Below the pieces are notes generated by a model. The model made no database searches. It was given only the letters and a program-made list of their open reading frames with translations, and was not told the origin of the DNA. This document shows positions 122-4,362 of a stretch of 33,749 nt of DNA, in pieces. The DNA comes from Candidatus Thermoplasmatota archaeon (GTDB taxonomy: Archaea > Thermoplasmatota > Thermoplasmata > RBG-16-68-12 > JAGMCJ01). Position numbers and translations under genes: made by a program. The stretch is from the NCBI GenBank assembly GCA_022848865.1, contig JAJISE010000020.1, forward strand, positions 1-33,749, written 5' to 3'. The stretch's first letter is position 1, and each line of letters begins with the position of its first letter.

Positions 122-370
122 TCAGAAGTCCTTTCCCGAGATGTACTGACAGAAGCCGTAGCCGATGGGGCCTTCCTTGGTCGTCTCGCACGGGAACTCG
201 GGGCACTCGAAGCAGAGGTCGATTCCCTTGTTGTGTGCGCAAGTGCTGATCTTGCAGAAGGGATTCTCCTTTGGCACGCAGCCGTCCTCCCCGTTCGGAC
301 ACTTCCCGCTCACCCTCCTCGGGCACTTCTCGCACGCGACCCCGCAGATGCCTATCTTCACGCTAGCCAC
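122..370 (-). CDS. Cys-rich DUF3795-like small protein
   Basis: An 82-residue protein with 11 cysteines in a pattern typical of DUF3795-like proteins: an N-terminal CGVACEKCP block, then paired CxxC-type cysteines (CFEC, FPCE) to the end. The spacing suggests binding of zinc or an iron-sulfur cluster, probably in the cytoplasm, since there is no signal peptide or membrane segment. The start is GTG at 370, with AAGGTG a few bases upstream on the same strand; no in-frame ATG fits as well. The reaction is unknown for this family. The gene runs away from the NUDIX gene, and the 11-bp repeat array lies between the two, upstream of both. Confidence rests on the cysteine pattern and plausible start; the family name is from recognition, not a search. 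Confidence 0.72.
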   Translation of the reverse strand: MASVKIGICGVACEKCPRRVSGKCPNGEDGCVPKENPFCKISTCAHNKGIDLCFECPEFPCETTKEGPIGYGFCQYISGKDF

Positions 371-418: not shown

Positions 419-589
419 TCCTGCTGGTTCCTTGCAGCTCCTCCGCAGGTTTCTTGCGACATCCTAGGGACTTACCAGGGACATACTTGCTACATCCTTG
501 CTCCTCCCTTGCTTGATCCTTGCAGGTTTCTTGCTTGATCCTTGCTCCTTCCTTGCAGGATCCTTGCTGAAACCTTGCTCCTCCCTTGC
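419..589. repeat. 11-bp tandem array, consensus CCTTGC plus 5 variable bases
   Basis: A CCTTGC-like hexamer recurs every 11 bases without a slip: at 419, 430, 441, 452, 463, 474, 485, 496, 507, 518, 529, 540, 551, 562, 573 and 584. The copies from 485 onward are CCTTGC or differ by one base, while those at 441, 463 and 474 are degenerate. The array fades into imperfect CTCCCTGCT repeats up to about 615. Because 11 is not a multiple of three, all frames carry the same 33-base pattern, and long open frames on both strands here are a by-product. It lies between two divergent genes (starts 370 minus and 751 plus). Its role is unknown; a helically phased protein-binding array is one possibility. 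Confidence 0.88.
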
Positions 590-750
590 TCCTCGCTGCT
601 CCTCCCTGCTCCTCGAAGCGGATCCTCCGTGGAAAGCTCAGATAGGGCATGAACGCACTGCGGCCCGCCAAAATGCCTGGAGGACTCCACTATCTTGATG
701 GGAAATCGTAATGTGCGGGCAGGACTATCCCTTTCCCGCGGAGAACGGAT

Positions 751-1248
751 ATGGTAGGGAACGAAGGCGAGGCCGCAACCGAACCTGCAAGACAGCCCGT
801 GCAAGTGCTTGTGCATCCCCTGAGGCTTGTCGGCTGGGACTGGGAGTTCCTGTTGCTCAGGCGCCTGCCCAGCCGAGGCGGCTTCTGGCAGGGAGTCACC
901 GGAGGAGTGGAGGGACAGGAGAGTCTCGCGGATGCCGCACGGCGCGAGCTGATCGAGGAGACCCGTCTCCAACCCATCGTGCTCCAGAGCATCGACCACT
1001 CCTGTTCGTACCCCATGGACGAAGGGCTGCGGCAGTCGCATCCCGAGGTCAATGAAATCGAGGAGCATGTCTTCTTCGCACAGGTGGATGGCGGGTCTGA
1101 TCCGCTCATCGATCCCGAGGAGCATGACAGATTCATCTGGTGCCGCTTGGAGGAGGCAATCGAGCTGCTCCACTGGCCAGAGAACAAGGACGCGCTCACT
1201 CGTGTGGAAGAGCATTTGAGGCGACACAGAGCGCGGCATGAGAGGTGA
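751..1248 (+). CDS. NUDIX hydrolase
   Basis: A 165-residue NUDIX-fold pyrophosphohydrolase that would cleave a nucleoside diphosphate linked to another moiety. The NUDIX box is visible around residues 51-72: a Gly-x5-Glu start (GGVEGQE), seven residues, then RELIEET. The usual Gly near the end of the box is Arg here. The Arg-Glu and Glu-Glu metal-binding positions are intact, so activity is likely. The fold resembles dihydroneopterin-triphosphate pyrophosphatase-type NUDIX proteins, but the substrate cannot be told. The ATG at 751 has GGAG about eight bases upstream. The stop TGA (1246-1248) lies inside the ribosome binding site of the next gene, so the two are probably translationally coupled. 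Confidence 0.88.
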   Translation: MVGNEGEAATEPARQPVQVLVHPLRLVGWDWEFLLLRRLPSRGGFWQGVTGGVEGQESLADAARRELIEETRLQPIVLQSIDHSCSYPMDEGLRQSHPEVNEIEEHVFFAQVDGGSDPLIDPEEHDRFIWCRLEEAIELLHWPENKDALTRVEEHLRRHRARHER

Positions 1249-2893: not shown

Positions 2894-3841
2894 TCAGTCA
2901 CCTCCGCCCGAGATCATCTTCACGAAGGCATCCTCGAGCGCTGGCTCTATCGTCCTGAAATCGCGTATCTCGACTCCCGCCTCCTTGAGCGCGATTATCA
3001 CGTCCATGCGGGCATCGGTGTCGCACGTGACCAGGAGCTTGTCTCCCTCGGCGTCAGCGGTCTCCACGCCCGGTACGTTGAACACGGCTTCCGGGATCCT
3101 CCCGCCCAAGCCGGGAACCGTGATTTCTAGCTGAGGCATGATATGGAGGCGCTTGCTCAGATTCGGGACCGTGTCCACGGCTAGGAGCTTGCCCTCGTCT
3201 ATTATCGCGACCCTGTTGCAGAGGGCCTGGACCTCGCTCAGTATGTGCGAGGAGAACAACACCGTCGCGCCCTGCTTGTTCAGGTTCCTGATCTTCTCCC
3301 TCGTGACCTTCACCCATCGTGCGTCCAACCCCCCCATGGGCTCGTCGAAGATGTAGACGGAAGGGTTCCCTATCATCGCCTGAGCTATTCCCAGCAGCTG
3401 GATCATGCCCTTGGAGTAGGTCCCCACCTTCCTGTGAATCGCATCAGTGAGCCCGACCTCCTCGATGAGGGGCACGACGATGGACTTGTCCACGTCCTTC
3501 AGTTCGCAGAAGAAGTTGAGCGTCTGCACGGGCGTCAGGTTGCGGTAGAAGGCGACCTGCTCGGGCAGGTAACCCGTCTTCCTTCTGTGCTCGACATTGA
3601 ATCCGTCATCGATCCTGGTACCGTTGAGAAAGATGTTCCCCCGAGTGGGTCTGACGAGTCCCATGATCATCTTGATCGTCGTCGTCTTCCCTGCCCCGTT
3701 CGGACCCAGGAAGCCATAGATCTCTCCCCTCTTCACGCTCATGTAGAGGCTGTCAACTGCCTGGACGTCCTTGAAGCTCTTCGAGAGGTTCCGCGTCTCG
3801 ATGGCGATCTCAGAATCGTAGTAGTCGCTCGTGGGTATCAC
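2894..3841 (-). CDS. ABC transporter ATP-binding protein
   Basis: A 315-residue ABC ATPase. The Walker A motif is GPNGAGKTT, the Q-loop region is in GYLPEQ, the signature is YSKGM (a common variant of LSGGQ in ABC-2 exporters), Walker B is VYIFDEP followed by the D-loop GGLDA, and the switch His is in SSH. The C-terminal 90 residues form the extension typical of ABC-2 ATPases. The start is GTG 3841. It drives the permease encoded directly downstream, giving a two-component exporter at the membrane. The exported substrate cannot be told; drug, lipid and polysaccharide export families all share this layout. Confidence 0.93.
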   Translation of the reverse strand: MIPTSDYYDSEIAIETRNLSKSFKDVQAVDSLYMSVKRGEIYGFLGPNGAGKTTTIKMIMGLVRPTRGNIFLNGTRIDDGFNVEHRRKTGYLPEQVAFYRNLTPVQTLNFFCELKDVDKSIVVPLIEEVGLTDAIHRKVGTYSKGMIQLLGIAQAMIGNPSVYIFDEPMGGLDARWVKVTREKIRNLNKQGATVLFSSHILSEVQALCNRVAIIDEGKLLAVDTVPNLSKRLHIMPQLEITVPGLGGRIPEAVFNVPGVETADAEGDKLLVTCDTDARMDVIIALKEAGVEIRDFRTIEPALEDAFVKMISGGGD

Positions 3842-3914
3842 CGTATGTGCCAGGTATTATGGTGCTACCCGATATGGAAACGAGTATTTCATTTGTCCCA
3901 TGCTCGGGCGAGGA

Positions 3915-3921
3915 CTTATAT
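3915..3921 (+). promoter_or_regulatory. TATA box for the small membrane protein gene
   Basis: The motif CTTATAT lies 52 bases upstream of the ATG at 3973. A transcript starting about 26 bases downstream would have a leader of roughly 28 bases containing the GGAGG at 3961-3965. This fits an archaeal promoter with a leadered transcript. Confidence 0.45.
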
Positions 3922-3972
3922 CGCTCCGAGACATTCTGAGGTCCGAGGATACGGTTACTTGGAGGGTACCAG

Positions 3973-4362
3973 ATGAGTTCTGGAACGGAACCAGGAGTTC
4001 CCCCTGAGGAGACTTCTGTCGGGGAGGATGCGGAGGGCGAGGGAGCGGAGACGCAGCGTAACGGTCCAGAAGCCATCCCAAGGATTCTAATCATCACAGG
4101 ACTGATCATCATAATGGGCAGCTACATTGGTTTGAATCACTTGGTGGTGAACTTGTGGGATGCGGAACCCCTGCAGATGGAGATCGCGATCGACGTTCTG
4201 CTGATTGGGGCCCTCCTCGTCGCCGTCGGGTTCGTGATAGGCGCTATGGATGTCAGAATCAACCGACTTGTGCGAGTGGGAATGGTCATAGGCATCGCGG
4301 TCTTGGTCTCTCTTCTCGTATACGAAGCCCTGGTGCTCTTCGGCTCCTCTCAGATTCCGTAG
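3973..4362 (+). CDS. Small three-TM membrane protein
   Basis: A 129-residue protein of unknown function. The first 35 residues are acidic and rich in Gly, Glu and Pro, so probably disordered. They are followed by three hydrophobic helices, at about residues 37-58, 70-92 and 100-124, separated by short charged loops (GAMDVRINRLVR). The ATG at 3973 has GGAGG about eight bases upstream. It is divergent from the ABC exporter and convergent with the next gene, so it is probably transcribed alone. No catalytic motif is visible. It could be a lineage-specific membrane protein. Confidence 0.7.
   Translation: MSSGTEPGVPPEETSVGEDAEGEGAETQRNGPEAIPRILIITGLIIIMGSYIGLNHLVVNLWDAEPLQMEIAIDVLLIGALLVAVGFVIGAMDVRINRLVRVGMVIGIAVLVSLLVYEALVLFGSSQIP

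Follow-up and report, generated by a model that had tools for sequence, protein, structure and literature searches.

Between two divergently oriented genes of a Thermoplasmatota archaeon, CCTTGC-like hexamers recur every 11 bases. This raises the question whether the row is a platform for a cooperatively binding protein, an element that bends DNA, a decayed gene, or a product of repeat copying. The row lies within a stretch of 33,749 nucleotides that was analyzed as a whole and is referred to here as the window.

The array and its flanks

The sixteen consecutive hexamers described in the original prediction are present, and they fit the motif to varying degrees. In the register 419+11n, from 419 to 584, exact CCTTGC occupies nine of the 16 in-phase positions (430, 496, 507, 518, 540, 551, 562, 573 and 584), TCTTGC or ACTTGC occupies three (452, 485 and 529), and the remaining four harbor weaker hexamers (TCCTGC at 419, CTCCGC at 441, CCTAGG at 463 and ACCAGG at 474). 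All units within 419-594 are 11 bp long and the array runs without interruption. TRF detected a period of 10 at 576-614, which corresponds to a tail of 10-bp steps beyond 589, and higher-order units of 22, 33 and 44 bp in the array. The core listed in Table 1 was found little altered at many other array loci. The divergent starts at 370 and 751 were also correctly predicted.

Table 1. Features of the window array, its flanking genes and the contigs carrying related arrays in the same genome (G000)
Feature	Coordinates	Strand	Description
11-bp-phased array	419..594	+	16 units; the pyrimidine-rich strand is the plus strand
Unit consensus of the array			YCTTGC followed by a 5-bp linker
Linker set of the array			TCCTC, TTGAT, AGGTT, TCCTT, AGGAT, TGAAA, TACAT (small, recurring)
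Core CCTAGGGACTTACCAGGGACATACTTGCTACAT	463..495	+	three in-phase units without CCTTGC or with varied CCTTGC
3' extension of the array	595..616	+	steps of about 10 bp (GCTGCTCCTC CCTGCTCCTC)
DUF3795 (PF12675) gene	122..370	-	flank of the array, context
NUDIX hydrolase (PF00293) gene	751..1248	+	flank of the array, context
Array contigs of G000			C1 (two), C2, C4, C7, C16, C18, C20, C27, C30, C32, C44, C45, C53, C56, C57, C63

The regularity is far above chance. For the spacer 371-750 the identity at lag 11 was 0.415; 2000 dinucleotide shuffles averaged 0.260 with an sd of 0.024 and reached at most 0.352. Of the 13 TTGC words in this spacer, 12 fall into a single phase, where the maximum in 2000 shuffles was 4. 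In the lag scan of the window, lag 11 showed the maximum (0.70), lags 22 and 33 reached 0.68 each, and among lags 4 to 32 none exceeded 0.50 apart from 11 and its multiples. The window array is thus confirmed as real.

A family of arrays in the genus

The same hexamer at 11-bp spacing recurs at other sites of the genome and in each of the four relatives from the genus. In the 2.03-Mb genome, strictly 11-bp-phased arrays occupy at least 17 intergenic loci, and all five genomes of the genus (G000 to G004) contain such arrays. The observation is therefore larger than first seen, the window array being one of many rows across the genus. The search with a three-unit pattern located CCTTGC-type arrays on six further contigs of G000; raw matches to YCTTGC x3 numbered 36, 54, 19, 27 and 40 in G000 to G004, respectively, versus 2 to 4 for the reversed control. 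The wider family was revealed by BLAST (two arrays), by a lag scan of 434 kb of G000 and by a degenerate pattern of eight YCY at 11-bp spacing. The lag scan recovered two arrays at lag 11 (the window array and L101) and none at lags 7, 8, 10, 13, 14, 16 and 17. The remaining TRF periods in the same 434-kb sample were multiples of 3, a single period of 20 with two copies and the 10/21 tail of the window array.

The words of the arrays vary (CCTTGC, CCTATA, CCATAG, CTCCGAGAT, CTCCRCTT, CTCCTAAC, CTGTA, CTGTAC, CCTAAGG, CTTCGCT), and the period is 11 whichever word is present, with rare 10-bp steps among otherwise exact 11-bp periods. Several blocks often follow in succession. Arrays of different letters have in common a pyrimidine run that ends in a pyrimidine-purine (Y-R) step once per 11 bp, a layout that could also be explained by common descent. 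One composite element on contig C27 of G000 (L059:3875-4627) and those at L081, L082, L085 and L095 consist of up to four phased blocks; their order is fixed (CCTTGC, CTCCRC, CTCCTAAC/CTCCGT, CTGTAC) and blocks are missing in some copies. The array of L066 (about 3800-4150) is flanked on both sides by the 21-bp GAAACGATTTCATATGGGCGG in direct orientation, variants of which lie close to L073 and L080. A ribbon-helix-helix antitoxin/RelE-like toxin pair, as judged from its resemblance by eye, is located near the arrays at L062:2320-2800 and L074:4696-5173.

Within the order, the three-unit pattern with at most one mismatch matched in 6 of 37 genomes, which are the five of the genus and G018 with a single, control-like match. 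Eight YCY at 11-bp spacing matched all five genomes of the genus and four of the 145 other genomes of the class; in G040 and G046 the matches are poly-C or CT stretches, and G005 and G141 have a single match each. With the spacing set to 13 bp as a control, the pattern gave 0 of 5 and 4 of 145. In samples of G006, which belongs to another family of the order, three lag-11 matches were obtained at a threshold of 0.48 versus 0 to 1 at other lags; one of the three is low-complexity pyrimidine sequence and one contains a run of about five units. The other samples yielded one lag-11 match in G007 and none in G005 and G009. An order-wide distribution of the arrays is thus weakly hinted at. Short 11-bp-phased runs of about 5 to 7 units are seen in G006 at L129:5965-6096 and L351:11858-12002, where lag 11 is again the top lag.

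Four CTTGC at 11-bp spacing are present in 110 IMG/VR stretches, which among the matches listed are mostly short near-exact repeats of 4 to 6 units on unrelated contigs. The 4-6 near-exact 11-bp direct repeats with CTTGC on these contigs (L175-L284) may be iterons, or repeats with a regulatory role, in several phage groups. The viral contigs L287 (1226-1375) and L288 (3557-3705) harbor degenerate CCTATA-type 11-bp arrays with a layout resembling that of the archaeal ones. A phage or plasmid origin of the arrays was considered and rejected, as blastn gave no match to phages or plasmids.

Turnover of units and blocks

It had been proposed that variation in copy number would point to repeat slippage, and orthologues do differ by whole units. 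Counted from the TACAT unit onwards, the NUDIX locus has 10 units in the window, 10 in L076 and 8 in L078, and the orders of the units differ. The arrays of 39 orthologous pairs show 56 net indels, of which 32 are exact multiples of 11; of the remainder, 11 measure 10, 12 or 21, nine are single bases and four are of other size. In the flanks of the same pairs only 2 of 22 indels are multiples of 11. As the pairs share history, these events are not independent. The count leaves aside the L062 pairs, the comparisons of L163, L164, L167 and L170, the serS comparison of L082 and the pairs L090/L091 and L059/L085. L059 and L085 are loci of one genome that share a duplicated block, a 269-bp stretch with 99% identity. 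Blocks also differ between species at a single locus (L063, L081 and L095, beside the same gene, whose identity was partly judged by eye). The indel sizes together with the near-identical and the differing blocks indicate that units are gained or lost whole and that blocks move or are exchanged between loci.

The reading that we favor, and to which we give about an even chance, is that the window array is a member of a genus-specific intergenic 11-bp satellite family shaped by whole-unit copying. Units would be copied within arrays by slippage or unequal exchange and blocks would be copied or exchanged between loci, and such copying would lead to local homogenisation of the arrays. The regularity of CCTTGC would then mainly reflect the recent copying of units derived from an ancestral 11-bp satellite and not a protein requiring the hexamer. 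The differing words would share a common origin, and the arrays would presumably lack a function; cellular use of their helical phasing, if any, would be secondary. Two observations on the arrays themselves stand against this reading. Differing words keep exactly 11 bp over 100-260 bp, though the units have diverged far beyond the species, and some loci retain an array in several species.

The arrays have two of the properties by which minisatellites or VNTRs are recognized, namely head-to-tail units of 11 bp and copy numbers that differ by whole units among relatives. With them they share tandem units of at least about 10 bp, whole-unit change between relatives, higher-order units (22, 33, 44 bp) and local homogenisation. 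They differ in occupying at least 17 dispersed loci with different words and one invariant period in one genus, and in their composite blocks of fixed order. No published description of dispersed arrays locked to 11 bp with varying words was found in the open-access literature searched. If neutral, the family would show how dispersed satellites that change in turn-sized steps can exist in a prokaryotic genome.

Since 33 bp encode exactly 11 residues, the array had also been regarded as a possible decayed gene encoding a protein with repeats of 11 residues. Of the 87 array segments, 50 have one or more stop-free frames, but a stop-free 11-mer repeat opens all frames anyway. The whole-turn indels, which measure 10, 11 and 22 bp, throw the sequence out of frame, and at the NUDIX locus no frame is open in common in all three orthologues. 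Coding sequence makes up 78% of the loci, and only 859 of 14640 array bases lie inside called genes; the calls were made with a simple codon-usage caller designed for this analysis, which does not pick the window array as a gene. The coding reading, whether as a decayed or a live gene, was rejected as next to impossible. The disruption of the frame by an 11-bp step accounts for the near absence of arrays from coding sequence.

Constraint on the repeated positions was assessed in four orthologous array sets without gain or loss of units, after gapped columns (7 to 21 per set) had been dropped. Columns conserved across units were variable in 15 of 188 cases and the others in 29 of 344 (Fisher p=1), a comparison that excludes only effects of about two-fold or larger. 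Substitutions per bp amounted to 0.091 in arrays and 0.083 in the neighbouring spacer. At the available power, protection of the repeated word from substitution is thus not seen. Isolated substitutions numbered 13 of 441 versus 46 of 1111, which are small numbers. Two comparisons run against a satellite. Over all aligned array columns, conserved-phase positions differ in 4.1% as compared to 10.2% and 14.9%, a difference that can be produced by unit turnover, which changes mainly the linkers. Indels other than whole turns are somewhat rarer in arrays, with 1.3 per 100 substitutions versus 2.3 in the spacer, based on only 9 and 15 events.

Helical phase, protein binding and genomic setting

Relaxed B-DNA has 10.5 bp per turn. 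With a strict 11-bp spacing each unit lies about 17 degrees ahead of the previous one, which adds up to about 8 bp, or three quarters of a turn, over sixteen steps. Due to this drift the hexamers are not all on one face unless the DNA is underwound or wrapped. The view that all of them face the same side of the helix therefore does not hold for relaxed B-DNA.

Phasing of dinucleotide steps was compared with a column-permuted null, in which the eleven columns of the same array are shuffled, for the 80 of 87 segments that are 99 bp or longer, and roll, wedge and flexibility tables were applied to the same segments. Y-R steps reached a mean percentile of 0.864 in the 80 segments and 0.82 in 13 representatives; in the representatives the mean was 0.81 for YY, 0.76 for RR and only 0.56 for RY. 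These percentiles are not independent, as the arrays are related. The phasing of Y-R, YY and RR above permuted arrays is a further point against the satellite family. It fits an architectural element in which a pyrimidine run and a flexible Y-R step per 11 bp would aid bending into a superhelix or wrapping round a putative nucleoid protein, as do the percentile of Olson roll (0.74), the layout common to different words and the indels of whole turns. However, neither the phasing of AA/AT/TT (0.44) nor the flexibility scale (0.47) was above the null, Bolshoy roll reached only 0.64, no constraint on substitution was seen (see above), and about 17 loci in 2 Mb are too sparse for general chromatin. 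The curvature element suggested originally is partly supported by the phased Y-R steps. Phased bending or wrapping is the main rival of the satellite family, though on balance we consider it rather unlikely.

A repeat of 11 instead of 10.5 bp would suit underwound or negatively supercoiled DNA. A passage of PMC3372288 cites Herzel and co-workers for a tie between 11-bp periodicity and negative supercoiling. The arrays share with phased A-tract curved DNA and with the 10-11 bp periodicity of genomes a sequence signal that recurs once per turn, and in both the arrays and the genome periodicity the 11-bp value can be linked to negative supercoiling (same passage). Unlike A-tract DNA, the arrays have no phased A/T steps, their phased element is a pyrimidine run followed by a Y-R step, and their period is exactly 11 with rare 10-bp steps instead of about 10.5 bp. 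Genome periodicity is a weak genome-wide signal, whereas the arrays are discrete and long.

The proteins of the genus are also in line with an architectural role. Searches of 21 genomes, among them all five of the genus, detected neither archaeal histone (PF00808) nor HU (PF00216), and positive-control genomes gave matches. According to PMC7613761, Diaforarchaea lost histones and Alba at their root, and the Thermoplasmatota lineage has seen turnover of its nucleoid proteins. The absence of histone and HU agrees with this published loss, and the genus would belong to Diaforarchaea judging from its Thermoplasmata relatives. The likeness to the histone/HTa chromatin of Thermoplasmatota thus concerns a lineage with histone and Alba loss and turnover of nucleoid proteins (PMC7613761), and the difference is that no histone or HU was found in this genus. 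A more specific version would be a helical-phase wrapping code, in which selection keeps a pyrimidine run and a Y-R step per 11 bp at chosen intergenic sites while the letters are free to change, so that a candidate nucleoid protein or supercoiling forms a stable superhelix; we regard this as improbable. If the cell uses them, the arrays would be a natural setting in which to test phased bending in a histone-less lineage.

A cooperative array for a sequence-specific protein, comparable to ParR on parC and serving in silencing, chromosome segregation or as another platform, comes next after bending and must be considered highly doubtful. The analogy draws on passages stating that the parC centromere of plasmid R1 (ParMRC) consists of tandem direct 11-bp repeats, which are bound by ParR (PMC9426499), and that ParR wraps parC DNA (PMC5016525). 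The arrays are likewise direct repeats of about 11 bp in tandem, and a conserved core, CCTAGGGACTTACCAGGGACATACYTGCTACAT, is present in many copies. They differ from parC in being dispersed over the chromosome with many words, and the variety of words within one genome speaks against this reading. The words show no visible constraint on substitution, strict 11-bp spacing departs from one face of relaxed B-DNA, and no parM or parR lies next to the window array, whose neighbours are DUF3795, NUDIX, GNAT and ABC transporter genes (at other array loci, genes were read by eye only). A ParR/parC-like platform is conceivable but lacks support.

The orientation of the spacers bears on binding as well. 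Arrays occur in spacers of all three kinds, divergent, tandem and convergent; in G000, those of L059, L061 and L086 are convergent and many are tandem. Sixty sampled reference spacers of at least 250 bp comprised 14 divergent, 34 tandem and 12 convergent ones. An array for a promoter-bound regulator was rejected, as no excess of divergent spacers was apparent from the list, judged without a statistical test. Thus, of the cooperative platform initially envisaged, the phased recurrence of the hexamer elsewhere is borne out, and the lack of promoter bias and of visible protection and the change of copy number by whole units tell against it. Copies upstream of other genes had been named as support for a binding array; copies were found, but they occupy spacers of any orientation and show no visible protection at the repeated positions.

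It is very improbable that the arrays are transcribed, with the pyrimidine-rich strand as a non-coding RNA or leader. Of 81 segments (those near contig ends were dropped from the 87), 24 have a TATA-like word close by on the 5' side and 15 on the 3' side, and no such word is consistently present. The two strands of the window array have folding z-scores of -2.4 and -2.1. However, the window array has no TATA-like word on either side, folding is about equal for both strands, and unit turnover scrambles structure. A known RNA family was rejected for the array, as none matched in Rfam at E values up to 1.

A clean empty site was considered at L087 and rejected. The relative in G004 (L295, contig C28) lacks the array and runs into an apparent tRNA gene, recognized by eye, which indicates rearrangement rather than simple insertion. 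Besides this pair, arrays near changes in synteny, sometimes near tRNA genes, were noticed at L079, L061, L091 and L174, as if the arrays mediated or marked rearrangements.
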